Below are positions 7,637-31,364 of a stretch of 32,853 nt of DNA, one piece after another. The position numbers and the translations under genes were made by a program. The stretch's first letter is position 1. The number at the start of each line of letters is the position of its first letter. Below the pieces are notes generated by a model. That model ran no database searches. It worked only from the letters and a program-made list of their open reading frames with translations, and was not told the origin of the DNA. Source of the stretch: Rubrivivax sp. SCN 70-15 (GTDB taxonomy: Bacteria; Pseudomonadota; Gammaproteobacteria; Burkholderiales; Burkholderiaceae_C); contig MEGM01000119.1 in the NCBI GenBank assembly GCA_001725505.1, positions 1 to 32,853 on the forward strand, given 5' to 3'.

Positions 7637-8113
7637 TCACAGGATCTCCCCGAGCAGGTGGTAATGCCCGCCCTGGAACACGAGCGGCGGCACCGGCGCC
7701 TCGCTCATCGACAGCACGCGGCCGATGAAGAGCTCGTGGTCGCCTGCGGTCTGGTGCGAGTGGGCCTCGCACTCGAACACCGCGGCGCAGCCGGACAGCA
7801 CCGGCGCGCCGGTTGCGCCGGGCGCCCACAGCCCTTCGTCGAACTTGGCATCGCGCCGCGTCGCGAAGCGGCGCGACAGGTCGACCTGCGCCTCGCCGAG
7901 CACGTTGACGGCGAAATGCCGCGCCTGCTGGAAGGCCGCCAGGCTCGGGCTGATGCGGCGCAGCGACCACAGCACCAGCGGCGGCGACAGCGACAGCGAC
8001 TGGAACGAGTTCGCGGTCAGGCCGACGCGCTCGCCGCGCGCATCGACGCAGCTGACGATCGTGACACCGGTGGCGAAGCGGCCGAGCGCGCTGCGCAGCG
8101 CGGTCGTGTCCAT
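7637..8113 (-). CDS. Flavin reductase domain protein (FMN-binding split barrel)
   Basis: RFATGVTIVSCVDARGERVGLTANSFQSLSLSPPLVLWSL, HFAVNVLGEAQVDLSRRFA, HELFIGRVL. Confidence 0.9.
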   Translation of the reverse strand: MDTTALRSALGRFATGVTIVSCVDARGERVGLTANSFQSLSLSPPLVLWSLRRISPSLAAFQQARHFAVNVLGEAQVDLSRRFATRRDAKFDEGLWAPGATGAPVLSGCAAVFECEAHSHQTAGDHELFIGRVLSMSEAPVPPLVFQGGHYHLLGEIL

Positions 8114-8601
8114 CAGCCGCCGGGCGTCGAGTTGTCCGCTGCGATGCCCCAGCGGCGCAGCGCGTCGTCGTCGGCGACGCGCGCGTCGACCCAGCGCGCC
8201 CCCTCGGGCGTGAGCTCCTTCTTCCAGAACGGCGCCTGCGTCTTCAGGTAGTCCATCAGGAACTCGCAGGCCTGGAAGGCCTGACCACGGTGCGCCGACG
8301 AGACCGCGACGAGCACGATCTGGTCCTGCGGCAGCAGCCGGCCGACACGGTGGATCACGCGCGCGGCACGGATGTCGAAGCGCTGCATCGCGGCGTCGAT
8401 CATCGCCTCGATCGCGCGCTCGGTCATGCCCGGGTAATGCTCGAGCTCCATCTCGCGCACCTCGCCGGGCCCGGCGCCGTGGCGGTCGCGCACGGTGCCG
8501 ATGAAGCTCGCAACCGCGCCGACCCCGGCGTCGCCGGCGCGCAGCGCGGCGACCTCGGTCGAGAGGTCGAAGTCGGCGCTCTGGATCGCGACGCGGGACA
8601 T
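8113..8601 (-). CDS. moaE: Molybdopterin synthase catalytic subunit MoaE
   Basis: GAVASFIGTVRDR, MELEHYPGMTE, VIHRVGRLLPQDQIVLVAVSSAHRGQAFQACEFLMDYLKTQAPFWKKE. Confidence 0.97.
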   Translation of the reverse strand: MSRVAIQSADFDLSTEVAALRAGDAGVGAVASFIGTVRDRHGAGPGEVREMELEHYPGMTERAIEAMIDAAMQRFDIRAARVIHRVGRLLPQDQIVLVAVSSAHRGQAFQACEFLMDYLKTQAPFWKKELTPEGARWVDARVADDDALRRWGIAADNSTPGG

Positions 8602-8606
8602 GGGGC

Positions 8607-8858
8607 TCAGCCGCCGGTCACGGGCGGGAAGAAGGCGACCTCCGCACCGTCCTCGATGACCGTGGCCTCGTCGCTCATCACCTGGTTCAGCGCGCAGCGC
8701 ACGGCGCGCGTTCGCGCCAGCACCTCGGCGTGGCGGCCGCCGCGCTCGAGCAGGCGGTCGCGCAGCGCGCCCAGCGTCGTGCCGGCGGGCAGCTCCAGCG
8801 TCTCTGCCGGGCCGAGCGCCTCGCGCAGCGCGGCGAAGTAGCGCAACTGGATCTTCAT
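8607..8858 (-). CDS. moaD: Molybdopterin synthase sulfur carrier subunit MoaD
   Basis: 83 aa MKIQLRYFAALREALG...GAEVAFFPPVTGG with C-terminal GG; start overlaps the moeA stop. Confidence 0.95.
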   Translation of the reverse strand: MKIQLRYFAALREALGPAETLELPAGTTLGALRDRLLERGGRHAEVLARTRAVRCALNQVMSDEATVIEDGAEVAFFPPVTGG

Positions 8859-10108
8859 CAGCGGTTGATCAGTTCGGACGTCGGCAGGAAGCGTACCGTG
8901 TCGCCGGCGCGGATGGCCTGGCCCGCCGGGTTGTCCACCAAGCCGTCGGCCCAGACGACCGAGGTCAGCACGCCCGAGCTCTGGTTCGCGAACAGGTCGA
9001 GCCCACCGCGCTCGTTCAGGCGCACGCGCAGGAACTCGCGCCGCTTGTCGGGGCGCGGCCAGTCGAAGTCGGCGCGCAGCGGCAGCGCCGCCGGCAACGC
9101 CGATGCCGAGCCCTGCATCGCGCGCAGGACGGTGGTCACGCACAGCAGATAAGTCACGAAGCTCGACACCGGGTTGCCCGGCAGCCCGATCAGCAACGCC
9201 GAGCCGCCGTCGCCCGGGCGGCGGATCGTGCCGAACGCGAGCGGCTTGCCCGGCTTGATCGCGATCTGCCAATGCTCCAGCGTGCCTTCGGCCTGCGCCG
9301 CCGGCTTCAGGTGGTCCTCGTCGCCGGCCGAGACGCCGCCGCAGGTGACGATCAGGTCGTGCCCGGCCGCCGCCTCGCGCAGCGCGGCGCGCGTCGCGTC
9401 GAGGCGGTCGGGAACGATGCCCAGGTCGGTGACCCCGCAGCCCGCGGCCTGGAACAGCGCGCGCAGCGTGAAGCGGTTCGAGTTGTAGATCGCGCCGGGC
9501 TTGAGCGGCTCGCCGGGCATCATCAGCTCGTCGCCGGTGGAGAACAGCGCCACGCGCGGCCGGCGCACGACGGCGAGCGTGGCCGCCCCGACCGAGGCCG
9601 CCATCCCCAGCGCCTGCGGCGTCATCCGCGCGCCCTGGTGCAGCACGATCGCACCCTGGTGCACGTCCTCGCCACGGCGGCGAATCCACTGGCCGAACGC
9701 CGGCACGGTGTTGACGCGCACCGCACCCAGCCCGTCTCCGGGAACGGCTTCGCACTGCTCCTGCATCACCACCGCGTCGGCACCGGCCGGCACCTGGGCG
9801 CCGGTGAAGACACGCGCCGCGGTGCCCGGCTCCAGTTCGGAGCCGACGACGCCCGCCGGGATGCGCTGCGACACCGGCAGCACGGTGCCGGCGGACGGCA
9901 CGTCGCTGCTGCGCAGCGCGTAGCCGTCCATCGAAGTGTTGTCCTCGGGCGGCACGTGCAGCGCCGACAGCACGTCGGCGGCAAGCACTCGGCCGAGGCC
10001 GTCGAAGGTCGAGACCGACTCGGTCTGCCGGATGCGGTGCGGTGCCGCGCCTTCGACGAGGCGGGCCAGCGCGTCGTCCAGGCTGAGCAGCGGGCGGGTG
10101 TCTTTCAT
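8858..10108 (-). CDS. moeA: Molybdopterin molybdenumtransferase MoeA
   Basis: NTSMDGYALRSSD, RVFTGAQVPAGADAVVMQE, STGDEL, IYNSN, TCGGVSAGDEDHLK, GLPGNPVSSFVTY. Confidence 0.97.
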   Translation of the reverse strand: MKDTRPLLSLDDALARLVEGAAPHRIRQTESVSTFDGLGRVLAADVLSALHVPPEDNTSMDGYALRSSDVPSAGTVLPVSQRIPAGVVGSELEPGTAARVFTGAQVPAGADAVVMQEQCEAVPGDGLGAVRVNTVPAFGQWIRRRGEDVHQGAIVLHQGARMTPQALGMAASVGAATLAVVRRPRVALFSTGDELMMPGEPLKPGAIYNSNRFTLRALFQAAGCGVTDLGIVPDRLDATRAALREAAAGHDLIVTCGGVSAGDEDHLKPAAQAEGTLEHWQIAIKPGKPLAFGTIRRPGDGGSALLIGLPGNPVSSFVTYLLCVTTVLRAMQGSASALPAALPLRADFDWPRPDKRREFLRVRLNERGGLDLFANQSSGVLTSVVWADGLVDNPAGQAIRAGDTVRFLPTSELINR

Positions 10109-11517: not shown

Positions 11518-11587
11518 GCGCCGATCTCCTCGCGGCAGGCAAGCGGCCACCGTGGAACCGGCTTCGCCGAACCACTGGCGGCGCCCG

Positions 11588-11617
11588 CGAGAAACAGTCC
11601 GCAGGGACTGCTTCTCG
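11588..11617. repeat. Intergenic hairpin repeat with GCAG loop, copy 2
   Basis: CGAGAAACAGTCC-GCAG-GGACTGCTTCTCG (13-bp arms, one mismatch), followed by ctcggccccctcgagagggagcgccgaaggcgctacgggggg. Confidence 0.75.
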
Positions 11618-11668
11618 TCGCTGCTCGGCCCCCTCGAGAGGGAGCGCCGAAGGCGCTACGGGGGGGGG

Positions 11669-13090
11669 TCAATTCAACTCCTCCTTGCGGATGCGGACGA
11701 TCGGCGCCAGCACCGTCGGCAGCGCCTGCATCTGCGCCAGCGCCGCGTTCATCCGTCCTTCGACGGTGTCGTGCGTGAGGATGATCAGGTCGGTCTTGCC
11801 CTCGCCCGCGGCGGGGGCCCCGAGGCCGTCGCCTTCGGTGCCGGGACGCTGCAGCACGGCATCGATCGAGATGTCGTTGTCGGCCAGGATCCCGGTGATG
11901 CGCGCGAGCACGCCCTTCTCGTCGGCGACCTGCAGCCGCAGGTAGAACGAGGTGACGACCTCGTCGATCGGCAGGATCGGCGTGTCCTGCAGCTCGCCGG
12001 GCTGGAAGGCCAGGTGCGGCACGCGGTGGTCGGGGTCGGCGCTCGCGAGCCGGGTGATGTCGACGAGGTCGGCGATCACGGCGCTGGCGGTCGGCTCGGC
12101 GCCGGCGCCCTTGCCGTAGTACAGCGTGGTGCCGACCGCGTCGCCATGCACGACGACGGCGTTCATCGCCCCTTCGACGTTGGCGATCAGCCGCGTCGCC
12201 GGGATCAGCGTCGGGTGCACGCGCAGCTCGATGCCGCCCGCCGGGTTGGCGGCGCTGCGCAGGTCGTCGCGGCGCTTCGTGATGCCGAGCAGCTTGATCC
12301 GGTAGCCGAGCTGCTCGGCGTAGCGGATGTCGGCCGCCTGCAGCGCAGCGATGCCTTCGACATGGGCACGGTCGAACTGCATCGGCACGCCGAACGCGAT
12401 CGCGCTCATGATCGTGGCCTTGTGCGCGGCGTCGACGCCCTCGATGTCGAAGGTCGGGTCGGCCTCGGCGTAGCCCAGCGCCTGCGCCTGCGCGAGCGCG
12501 GTCGCGAAGTCCAGCCCCTTGCTGCGCATCTCGGAGAGGATGAAATTCGTCGTGCCGTTGATGATGCCGGCGATCCACCCGATGCGGTTCGCCGTCAGCC
12601 CCTCGCGCAAGGCCTTGATGATCGGGATGCCACCCGCGACCGCGGCCTCGAACGCGACGATCACGCCCTGGTCGCGCGCGGCCTGGAAGATCTCGGTGCC
12701 GTGCACCGCGAGCAGCGCCTTGTTCGCGGTGACGACATGCTTGCCGGCGGCGATCGCCTCCAGCACCAGCTGGCGCGCGATGCCGTAGCCCCCGATCAGC
12801 TCGACGACGATCTCGATCGCCGGGTTCGCGATCACCTCGCGCGCATCGGCGACGACGCGGGCGTGGTCGCCGACGATGGCGCGCGCGCGCGCCGCGTCGA
12901 GGTCGGCCACCATCGTGATCGCGATGCCGCGGCCGGCGCGGCGCCGGATCTCGTCCTGGTTGCGGCGCAGCACCTCGAAGGTGCCGCGGCCGACGGTGCC
13001 GATGCCGAGCAGGCCGACCTGGATCGGACCGGCTTCGACATCGCGTCGCGCGGCGGGATCGGCCGGCGCCGGAGCGCTTCTTGTGTTCAT
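11669..13090 (-). CDS. hom: Homoserine dehydrogenase with C-terminal ACT domain
   Basis: VGLLGIGTVGRGTFEVL, VTANKALLAVHG, GIINGTTNFILSEM, EADPTFDIEGVDAAHK, FYLRLQVADEKGVLARITGILADNDISID. Confidence 0.97.
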   Translation of the reverse strand: MNTRSAPAPADPAARRDVEAGPIQVGLLGIGTVGRGTFEVLRRNQDEIRRRAGRGIAITMVADLDAARARAIVGDHARVVADAREVIANPAIEIVVELIGGYGIARQLVLEAIAAGKHVVTANKALLAVHGTEIFQAARDQGVIVAFEAAVAGGIPIIKALREGLTANRIGWIAGIINGTTNFILSEMRSKGLDFATALAQAQALGYAEADPTFDIEGVDAAHKATIMSAIAFGVPMQFDRAHVEGIAALQAADIRYAEQLGYRIKLLGITKRRDDLRSAANPAGGIELRVHPTLIPATRLIANVEGAMNAVVVHGDAVGTTLYYGKGAGAEPTASAVIADLVDITRLASADPDHRVPHLAFQPGELQDTPILPIDEVVTSFYLRLQVADEKGVLARITGILADNDISIDAVLQRPGTEGDGLGAPAAGEGKTDLIILTHDTVEGRMNAALAQMQALPTVLAPIVRIRKEELN

Positions 13091-23701: not shown

Positions 23702-24830
23702 ATGGGCGAGAACCACATTCCACTGGTCGACCTGCGCTACGCCGCGCAGGTGCCGCGCATCCCCGACGCCCCGCCCGCGCCCGACGGCCTGCTCGTCGAC
23801 CGCCACGGCCGGCCGCTGCACGACCTGCGCATCTCGGTCACCGATCGTTGCAACTTCCGCTGCAGCTACTGCATGCCCAAGGAAGTCTTCGACAGGCAGT
23901 ACACCTTCCTGCCGCAGAGCTCGCTGCTCAGCTTCGAGGAGATCACGCGCGTCGCGCGGCTGTTCGTCGCGCATGGCGTCACCAAGCTGCGGCTGACCGG
24001 CGGCGAGCCGCTGCTGCGCCGCCATCTCGAAGGCCTGATCGAGCAGCTCGCGACGCTGCGCACCGCCGACGGCGAGCCGCTCGACATCACGCTGACGACG
24101 AACGGCTCGCTGCTCGAACGCAAGGCCGAGGCGCTGCATCGCGCCGGACTGCGCCGCGTCACGGTGAGCCTGGACGCGCTCGACGACGCGATCTTCCGGC
24201 GCATGAACGACGTCGACTTCCCGGTCGCCGACGTGCTGCGCGGCATCGATGCGGCGCTGCGCGCGGGGCTCGCGCCGATCAAGATCAACATGGTCGTCAA
24301 GCGCGGAACGAACGACCATGAGATCGTGCCGCTGGCGCGCCACGTGCGTGACGCCTACGGGCCGGCGGTGATCCTGCGCTTCATCGAGTACATGGACGTC
24401 GGCGCGACGAACGGCTGGCGCATGGACGAGGTGCTGCCGTCGGCGCAGGTCGTCGAGCGCCTGTCGGCCGCGTTCGCGCTCGAGCCGCTGCAGCCCAACG
24501 CCAGCGGCGAGACCGCGCAGCGCTGGCGCTACCGCGACGGCGGCGGCGAGATCGGCGTCATCAGCAGCGTCACGCAGGCCTTCTGTCTGCCGCGACTGCA
24601 ACCGCGCCCGCCTGTCCACCGAAGGCAAGCTCTTCCTGTGCCTGTTCGCATCGAAGGGCCACGACCTGCGCGCGCTGCTGCGCGGTGGCTTCTCGGACGA
24701 GCAGATCGCGGGCGCGATCGGCCTGATCTGGACCGATCGCGACGACCGCTACTCCGAGCTGCGCAGCGCGCTCCAGGCCAGCCCGTCCGACGGCGCGCGC
24801 CGGGTCGAGATGCACTACATCGGCGGCTAG
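23702..24830 (+). pseudogene. moaA: GTP 3',8-cyclase MoaA, frameshifted near the C-terminal Fe-S motif
   Basis: Frame 1 [17 protein letters not shown]...[15 protein letters not shown]...[14 protein letters not shown]; continues in another frame as [44 protein letters not shown]...[16 protein letters not shown] duplication at 24582-24589. Confidence 0.9.
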
Positions 24831-24853
24831 CCGAGCCACCCCCGAAGCGCCTT

Positions 24854-24880
24854 CGTCGCTCCCCCTCGAGGGGAGCGACG
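24854..24880. repeat. Intergenic inverted repeat between convergent moaA and rnhA
   Basis: CGTCGCTCCCC-CTCGA-GGGGAGCGACG, 11-bp perfect stem; next to a second hairpin acgccgga..ccggcgaagccgg..tccggcgt. Confidence 0.75.
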
Positions 24881-24928
24881 CCGGAAGACCGGCGAAGCCG
24901 GATCTCCGGCGTCCGCCGGGCGGGGAAG

Positions 24929-25369
24929 TCATCGGCCCGAACTGCCGCTGACGCCGCGATTCGCGAGCAGATCGGCGCGTTCGTTGCCGGGGTCGCCGGC
25001 ATGGCCCTTGACCCAGCGCCAGGTCACGTCGTGGGTCGCGGCCAGCGCGTCCAGTCGCTGCCAGAGCTCGATGTTCTTGACCGGCTTGCGGTCGGCGGTC
25101 TTCCAGCCGCGCGCCTTCCAGCCGTGGATCCAGCTCGTGATGCCGTTGCGCACGTACTCGCTGTCAGTGTAGAGCGTCACGTGGCAGCGCTTCTTCAGCG
25201 ATGCCAGCGCCTCGATCACGGCCGTCAGCTCCATCCGGTTGTTCGTCGTCAGCGGCTCGCCACCCCAGAGCTCCTTCTCGTGCTCGCCGCTCTTGAGCCA
25301 GGCGCCCCAGCCTCCCGGACCGGGGTTGCCCTTGCAGGCGCCATCGGTATAGATCACCACCTCGGGCAT
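24929..25369 (-). CDS. rnhA: Ribonuclease HI
   Basis: [72 protein letters not shown]. Confidence 0.98.
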
Positions 25370-26205
25370 CAACACTCCAGTTCGGCCGGCTCGCGGTTGG
25401 CGATCACGACCGGCGCTGCCTTCAGCTTGCGCCTGTCGTGCCGGACCAGCCCGACCCGGTGCATGCCGCGCACGCGCTTGACCGCGACCAGGAAATAGAC
25501 CGCGCCGAGCACCGGCCACCAGCGGTCGCCGACGCGGTCCATCCAGCCGAAGCGCTCGAGCCAGGTCGGCGACATCAGCGGCGGCCGGTAGCAGCCGAAG
25601 CGCCCGCCCTCGACCTCGAAGCCGAGCAGGTGCAGCCAGTCGCGCAGCCGCCAGTAGCCGATGAACTCGCCCGCGCGCGGCAGGTACAGCGGCGCGTCGC
25701 GGCCGAAGCCCATGCCGCGCCGCGCGCGCCCCGCGCGCTGGCGCAGGCCCCACAGGCTGGCCGGGTTGAAGCCCGCGATGACGACCCGGCCCTCGGGCAC
25801 GAGCACGCGGTCGACTTCGCGCAGCGTGCGGTGCGGGTCGCGTGCCAGCTCGAGCGAATGCGGCAGCACGACGAGGTCGATGCTGTTCTCCGGGAAAGGC
25901 AAGGCGTCGAACTCGCAATACAGCGCGATCGGCGCATCGGTGAGCTGGCTCGCGATCAGCTCGTCGCTCGGCGGCGGCAGCGGCAGCACCTCGTGGCCGA
26001 CGAGCGCGTCACACGCGACCCAACGGTGCGGCATCCGGTTCGCGCGCAGGCCCTCGAGTTCGGGCAGGCCGAGCTGCAGCGCGTGGAAGCCGAAGGCGTC
26101 GGCGACCGCATGGTCGAGCCGGTCCTGTTCCCATTCGAGCAACACACGGCCGGGCGCGGTCTGCAGCCAGGATCCCAACTCTATAATCGACTCGTCCCTG
26201 GTCAT
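25369..26205 (-). CDS. Class I SAM-dependent methyltransferase-like protein
   Basis: [53 protein letters not shown] at complement 26203-26205, alternative upstream start at 26241. Confidence 0.82.
26182..26187 (+). promoter_or_regulatory. Candidate -10 box (TATAAT) for gloB inside the methyltransferase 5' coding end
   Basis: aactcTATAATcgac, 17-20 nt upstream of the gloB start. Confidence 0.45.
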
Positions 26206-29183: not shown

Positions 29184-30191
29184 ATGAACATCATCATCCT
29201 CGACGACTACCAGGACGCGGTGCGCAAGCTGCGTTGCGCGGCGCTGCTGGAGCCGCTCAACGCGAAGGTCTTCACGAACACGGTGAAGGGCATCGGCCAG
29301 CTGTCGGTGCGGCTGCGCGACGCCGAGGTGCTGGTGCTGATCCGCGAGCGCACGCAGTTCCCGCGCGCGCTGCTCGAGAAGCTGCCCAAGCTGAAGCTGA
29401 TCTCGCAGACCGGCAAGGTCGGCTCGCATGTCGACGTCGAGGCCTGCACGCGGCTGGGCATCGCGGTCGCCGAGGGCACCGGTTCGCCGGTGGCGCCGGC
29501 CGAGCTGACCTGGGCGCTGATCATGGCGTCGATGCGCCGGCTGCCGCAGTACATCGGCAACCTGAAGCATGGCGCGTGGCAGCAGTCGGGGCTGAAGTCG
29601 GCGTCGATGCCGCCGAACTTCGGCATCGGCATGGTGCTCGAGCGCAAGACGCTCGGCATCTGGGGCTACGGCCGCATCGGTGCGCTCGTCGCCGGCTACG
29701 GCCGCGCGTTCGGCATGAAGGTGCTGGTCTGGGGACGCGAGGCGTCGCGCGCGCGCGCGGTCGCCGACGGCTACCTCGCGGCGTCGTCGCAGGCCGAGTT
29801 CTTCGAGCAATGCGACGTGATCAGCCTGCACCTGCGGCTCAACGATGCGACGCGCGCGATCGTCCACCTCGACGACCTGCTGCGCATGAAGCCGACCGCG
29901 CTCTTCGTCAACACCTCGCGTGCCGAGCTGGTCGACGAAGGTGCGCTCGTCTCGGCGCTGAACAAGGGCCGGCCCGGGATGGCGGCCGTCGACGTCTTCG
30001 AGAGCGAGCCGATCCTGCAGGGCCACCCACTTCTGCGCCTGGAGAATGCGGTCTGCACGCCGCACATCGGCTACGTCGAGCAGGACAGCTACGAGATGTA
30101 CTTCGGCGCGGCGTTCGAGAACGTCGTCAACTTCGTCAACAAGCAGCCGACGAACATCGTCAACCCCGAGGCGCTGAAGGTGCTGCGGTGA
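29184..30191 (+). CDS. D-2-hydroxyacid dehydrogenase family protein (NAD-binding)
   Basis: LGIWGYGRIGALVAGYGRAFGMKVLVWG, VNTSRAELVDEGALVSAL, AAVDVFESEPILQGHPLLRLENAVCTPHIGYVEQDSYE. Confidence 0.93.
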   Translation: MNIIILDDYQDAVRKLRCAALLEPLNAKVFTNTVKGIGQLSVRLRDAEVLVLIRERTQFPRALLEKLPKLKLISQTGKVGSHVDVEACTRLGIAVAEGTGSPVAPAELTWALIMASMRRLPQYIGNLKHGAWQQSGLKSASMPPNFGIGMVLERKTLGIWGYGRIGALVAGYGRAFGMKVLVWGREASRARAVADGYLAASSQAEFFEQCDVISLHLRLNDATRAIVHLDDLLRMKPTALFVNTSRAELVDEGALVSALNKGRPGMAAVDVFESEPILQGHPLLRLENAVCTPHIGYVEQDSYEMYFGAAFENVVNFVNKQPTNIVNPEALKVLR

Positions 30192-31364
30192 GCACGCGCG
30201 CGGCCGGCTGGGCGCTGCTGGCCGGCAACTTCGCGATCGGCTGCGGCGTGATGGTCACCGCCGGCGCGCTCAACGATCTCGTCCGTTCGCTTCACGTGTC
30301 GGTCGCGGCGGGCGGCCAGCTGATCACGGTGGCCGCCGTCGTGATGGCCGTCGGCGCGCCGCTGCTCGCCGCCGCCGTGTCCGGCTTGGACCGGCGCCGG
30401 CTGCTCACCGCGGCGCTGGTCTGGTACGCGCTCGGCCACGCGCTGAGTGCGCTCGCACCCGGCTACGCCTGGCTGCTGCCGGTGCGCGCCGCGACCGTGC
30501 TCGGCGCCGCGGTGTTCACGCCGCAGGCGGCGGCCGCGATGGCGACGCTGGCCGCCCCCGCCGAGCGCGGACGCGCGATCACCTTCATCTCGCGCGATCA
30601 CCTTCATCTTCCTCGGCTGGTCGCTGTCGTCGGTGATCGGGATGCCGATGCACGCGTGGATCGGCGAGACCTTCGGCTGGGCCGTGGCCTTCGGCGTCGT
30701 CGCGCTGCTCAGCGCCGCGGCAGCGCTCGCGGTCTGGCGCGCGCTGCCGGACGGCATCCGCCCTGCGGCGCTGTCGCGCCAGGACTGGCGCGGCACGCTG
30801 ACGCACCCGCTGCTGATGGGCGTGGTCGGCGTCACCGCGCTCAGCGCCGCCGGCCAGTTCACGCTGTTCTCCTACTTCGCGCCCTACTACCGCCAGGTGC
30901 TCGGCGCCGATGCCGCCGGCGTGAGCTTCCTGTTCCTCTGGTTCGGCGCCTTCGGCCTGCTCGGCAACCTGCTGCTGCAGCGGCTGATCGACCGCTGGGG
31001 CGCAGCGTGCTGCGCCACCGTCACGCTCGGCGCGATGGCCGCGTCGCTGCTCGCCTGGCCGCTCGCCGCGAGCGTGCCGGCGATGGCATTGCTCGTCACG
31101 CCCTGGGCGCTGGGCTGCTTCGCGTCGAACTCGGCCCAGCAGGCGAGGCTGGGCGGCGCGGCGCCGGCGTTGGCGTCGGCACTGATGGCGCTGAACACCT
31201 CGGCGATGTACCTCGGCCAGGCGGTCGGCGCGGCCGGCGGCGGCGCCCTCCTCGCGGTGGGCGGCTGGGGCAACCTGAACCTGGCCGCCACCGGCTGGAT
31301 GCTCGCCGCGATCGCGCTCAGCGCCCTGCTCGCCCCGCGCATGCGCGCGCCCGTCCATGTCTGA
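30188..31364 (+). pseudogene. MFS transporter, frameshifted by a 19-bp tandem duplication
   Basis: GTG start overlapping the previous stop; frame 1 ...AAMATLAAPAERGRAITFI, frame 2 ...FIFLGWSLSSVIGMPMHAWIGETFGWAVAFGVVALL...LSALLAPRMRAPVHV; duplication 30572-30590 / 30591-30609. Confidence 0.9.
30572..30609. repeat. Perfect 19-bp tandem direct duplication
   Basis: cgcgcgatcaccttcatct x2; removing one copy restores GRAITFIFLGWS. Confidence 0.97.

Follow-up and report, generated by a model that had tools for sequence, protein, structure and literature searches.

Does the broken moaA gene in the draft genome of Rubrivivax sp. SCN 70-15 mean that the organism has lost the GTP 3',8-cyclase MoaA, or was the gene broken in the assembly? 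The window analysed here is the entire contig C119 (32,853 nucleotides) of a 4.03-Mb draft, which consists of 267 contigs and is 89.98% complete and 4.01% contaminated. The genome was sampled as stretches, covering about 1.1-1.2 Mb of the 4.03 Mb.

The lesion is a tandem duplication of four bases. The sequence TCTGTCTG, read directly in the window, occupies positions 24582-24589, exactly as an earlier note on this DNA had reported. The moaA open reading frame starts with the ATG at 23702 on the forward strand, and the duplication shifts it by +1 within the C-terminal CX2CX13C motif. In the assembled frame, the translation runs through SVTQAFC and then into CLPRLQPR. Because the DNA is rich in G+C and stops are scarce, this wrong frame remains open until the stop at 25496-25498. 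The proper continuation, which ends with VEMHYIGG and a stop at 24830, was found one frame over, where the note had expected it. The profile TIGR02666 splits into two pieces that meet at the duplication. Profile positions 1-260 match the 5' part with the radical-SAM domain (23702-24587, forward strand, 304.9-305.5 bits), and positions 253-336 (60.1 bits) or 259-336 (62.3 bits) match the 3' part in the other frame (24588-24830, forward strand), which carries the rest of the second-cluster motif. A scan with the genome's own codon usage, performed without prior knowledge of the site, placed the frame switch at 24585. The profile split and this switch bear out the claim of a frameshift inside the Fe-S motif.

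The 5' part alone scores 304.9 bits, above the TIGR02666 cut-off of 284.05, and the N-terminal radical-SAM motif CX3CX2C is present as CNFRCSYC at 23849-23872 (forward strand). The C-terminal features of MoaA are not in frame: the assembled frame reads FCLPRLQPR in place of CX2CX13C, with the remaining cysteines one frame over, and the terminal Gly-Gly lies in the other frame as HYIGG before the stop at 24830. The locus resembles the GTP 3',8-cyclase MoaA of TIGR02666 in that CX3CX2C, profile positions 1-336 (in two pieces), CX2CX13C and the GG are all encoded in the DNA, but it differs in that, as assembled, the C-terminal motif and the GG are out of frame with the rest. The assembled MoaA keeps one of the three cysteines of the C-terminal cluster and has lost the GG. 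The motif of the second cluster is CX2CX13C, and both clusters have been described as essential for activity (PMC5352715). The product of moaA as assembled is thus predicted to have lost its function.

The earlier note considered a lone dead moaA biologically odd, and this holds in the wider genome. Three later genes of the pathway are intact on the reverse strand of the window, as the note had said. moeA (8858-10093) matches positions 2-398 of the 401 of NF007960 with 360.6 bits (cut-off 440), moaE (8113-8601) matches NF007959 over nearly its full length with 162.6 bits (cut-off 175), and moaD (8607-8858) is an open reading frame of 83 aa with a GG end, located between moeA and moaE. Profiles also named genes for molybdoenzymes in the genome: narG (nitrate reductase alpha), a formate dehydrogenase alpha subunit, a CO-dehydrogenase-type large subunit, xdhB and soxC; these profiles were run on fragments, and some scores are below the full-length cut-offs. 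There are five molybdenum-hydroxylase-type loci and several PF00384 proteins, one of which is NuoG-like and has no need for the molybdenum cofactor (Moco). Since moaD, moaE, moeA and several molybdoenzymes are encoded, the genome is expected to need MoaA. A second moaA, one of the ways out that the note had offered, was sought across the draft by profile search and none was found; a match on contig C75 reached only 25 bits.

Tandem pairs of 4 bp are common per se: this genome has about 3,360 of them per Mb, and its relatives have 3,307 per Mb. The pair at 24582-24589 is therefore ordinary by frequency, and the lesion is shown by comparison with relatives instead. Whole-genome search and alignment gave a net 4-bp gap at the duplication site in all 29 same-genus relatives. 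The extra TCTG copy was also found in none of 80 further Burkholderiales loci, among which the closest named relative is the assembly KLAP34 (84% protein identity); two distant loci of the 80 show, slightly further along, an additional gap of 2 bp. Together, 109 of 109 related loci carry a single TCTG, and none is intact with the duplicated sequence; the 29- and 80-member sets may overlap, so 109 is a number of loci, and the number of separate genomes may be lower. The exact lesion sequence had no match in other genomes and viral contigs, and the window had no match in Rfam. The ratio of nonsynonymous to synonymous differences from relatives was 1.27 for the part of moaA 3' of the lesion, 3.56 for the wrong frame and 1.0 for the upstream part. 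This protein-like ratio gives no sign that moaA has decayed.

A second gene on the contig is broken as well. The MFS transporter gene at 30188-31363 (forward strand), whose N-terminal part matches MFS efflux families, switches frame at 30591. The cause is a perfect 19-bp tandem duplication, CGCGCGATCACCTTCATCT twice, at 30572-30609, 6 kb from the moaA lesion. This duplication is absent in 19 of 19 relatives, and among the perfect tandem repeats of more than 11 bp in the 806 kb of this genome that were scanned, it alone is out of frame. The extra copies are thus private to this assembly at both genes (0/109 at moaA and 0/19 at the MFS gene).

The state of the draft bears on how these duplications are read. 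Unexplained coding-frame switches numbered 20 in 1.116 Mb of the draft (17.9/Mb) versus 3 in the 0.493 Mb of contigs from relatives (6.1/Mb); the counts are small and the control contigs belong to other drafts, so these rates do no more than lend support. Of the 20 switches, three lie at long N runs and one at NNN. Another is at L251:3673, where 10 bp are tandemly duplicated out of frame within a repetitive autotransporter-like gene (L251:3400-4250). The N gaps give the strongest evidence. At several short ones, flanks of 11-28 bp are duplicated: 28 bp recur on both sides of NNN in a transport-ATPase-like gene (L074:796), 13 bp are shared across 8 N (L235:1588), an exact 20-bp overlap flanks 7 N (L248:1789), and an exact 11-bp suffix/prefix overlap flanks 6 N (L075:18643). 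Shared flanks of at least 12 bp occurred at 3 of the 13 N gaps in 1.2 Mb, versus 1 of 300 shuffled pairs. Duplicated flanks of short N gaps are the expected result of joining overlapping ends unmerged.

From these comparisons, we believe it probable that the duplicated TCTG is an artefact of assembling a fragmented draft and that the organism has no such lesion. Under the proposed mechanism, two ends sharing a few bases would have been joined with their overlap left unmerged. The bases common to both ends would then stand in the assembly as a tandem pair and throw the gene out of frame, and the TCTG copy would have arisen at such a join. The organism itself would carry an ordinary intact moaA, which would feed its encoded molybdoenzymes. 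We infer the step from the duplicated ends at N gaps to the 19-bp and 4-bp duplications of the window, which are free of N. The absence of an N run at either of these sites counts against an artefact. An overlap of four bases is also short for an assembler to have left unmerged, and one real slippage event could yield the identical sequence. In addition, long perfect tandem duplications free of N were not in excess across the genome (806 kb scanned), which weakens the simple version of the artefact; such duplications are rare elsewhere in the draft, and two on this contig are not plain genome-wide background.

False duplications are known from vertebrate assemblies, where a naturally single sequence appears twice, sometimes as neighbouring copies separated by a gap (PMC9516828). 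The likeness ends there: those duplications are large and mostly driven by haplotypes, whereas the ones considered here measure 4-28 bp and would have arisen at joins of a fragmented bacterial draft by the mechanism proposed above. A literature search for exactly such an artefact in metagenome-assembled genomes found no direct description. Short tandem duplications at joins can make conserved genes look like pseudogenes in draft genomes, and caution is needed when such genes are interpreted. These artefacts can be recognised by private out-of-frame tandem copies and by duplicated ends around short gaps.

The earlier note had left assembly error and real mutation side by side. It is unlikely, though the strongest of the alternatives, that replication slippage or end-joining produced a real, recent 4-bp duplication and so knocked out moaA in the strain or a fraction of its population. 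In favour of this are the sequence as assembled, a site free of N and ambiguity, the lack of a second moaA in the draft and the reported need for both clusters (PMC5352715). Of the three cysteines of the C-terminal cluster, MoaA would keep only one; it would also lack the GG and carry some 300 residues unrelated to it, and the Moco pathway would halt at its first step. The strain would then be unable to make the cofactor despite its genes for nitrate reductase, formate dehydrogenase, CO dehydrogenase, xanthine dehydrogenase and SoxC. Against this stand the intact later Moco genes and several intact molybdoenzyme genes, as well as the 3' part of moaA, which shows no sign of decay. The other private frameshift by tandem duplication, 6 kb off, and the duplicated ends at short gaps implicate the assembly, and on these two grounds an assembly error is favoured over a real mutation; the interpretation in the note is partly supported.

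Some MoaA would still be made if the lesion were reversible through phase variation by slippage, a reversible lesion being what the note had also suggested, or if programmed +1 frameshifting read through the site. A +1 shift there would bring translation back into the downstream frame at the cost of one added residue, and that frame retains its coding character. Phase-variable short tandem repeats likewise have a tandem unit within a coding sequence, here one of 4 bp. However, there are just two units, private to one assembly, in the gene of a housekeeping enzyme; every relative has one unit, and no variation in copy number was seen that would make this a phase-variable tract. Programmed frameshift sites are normally conserved, but this one is shared with no relative, and it has no stop or other evident shift signal. 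The 19-bp duplication would still need a separate explanation. We regard this reading as very improbable, and the suggestion of a reversible lesion was not supported.

The search for moaC gave a further gap in the pathway. The gene is present in 42 of 43 good-quality genomes searched, but it was not found in this draft, which is about 90% complete. Nor does any part of the draft show synteny with the 14.4 kb around moaC in a close relative (G027). Because the whole neighbourhood is missing as well, the absence of moaC is best read as an unassembled region. The match of contig C7 (L040/L243, ~21900) to the moaC neighbourhood of another relative (G026, L224) ends about 2.5 kb short of moaC, beyond which the sequences diverge. 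This divergence was considered as evidence of a deletion and dropped, as the gene order around moaC varies among relatives. The least credible reading, that the first Moco step has been lost with moaA broken and moaC absent, while cPMP or another pterin intermediate is taken from neighbouring cells and the later steps are kept, draws on the missing moaC but is countered by the equally missing 14-kb neighbourhood and the incompleteness of the draft, and we know of no cPMP importer.

Several other features of the draft were observed. At L037:7993, the soxC frame meets no stop and continues into the beginning of a soxD-like cytochrome gene, which is possibly a further frame error or a fusion. More apparent coding-frame breaks, with no clear long duplication, lie at L085:2987, L087:5140, L254:6302, L074:8142 and L257:8418. 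The two ends of the contig (1-420 and 32450-32853) share a repeat, with an inverted pair of 218 nt (85%) and a direct pair of 77 nt (94%). The repeat recurs in several other stretches of the genome, in part at the starts of contigs, and is absent from the relatives' sampled stretches; it is a dispersed family that probably breaks the assembly. The G+C-rich intergenic spacers at 24831-24945 and 11540-11680 are a short dispersed spacer repeat, which recurs in 7-8 of 59 sampled stretches of the genome and once in relatives.
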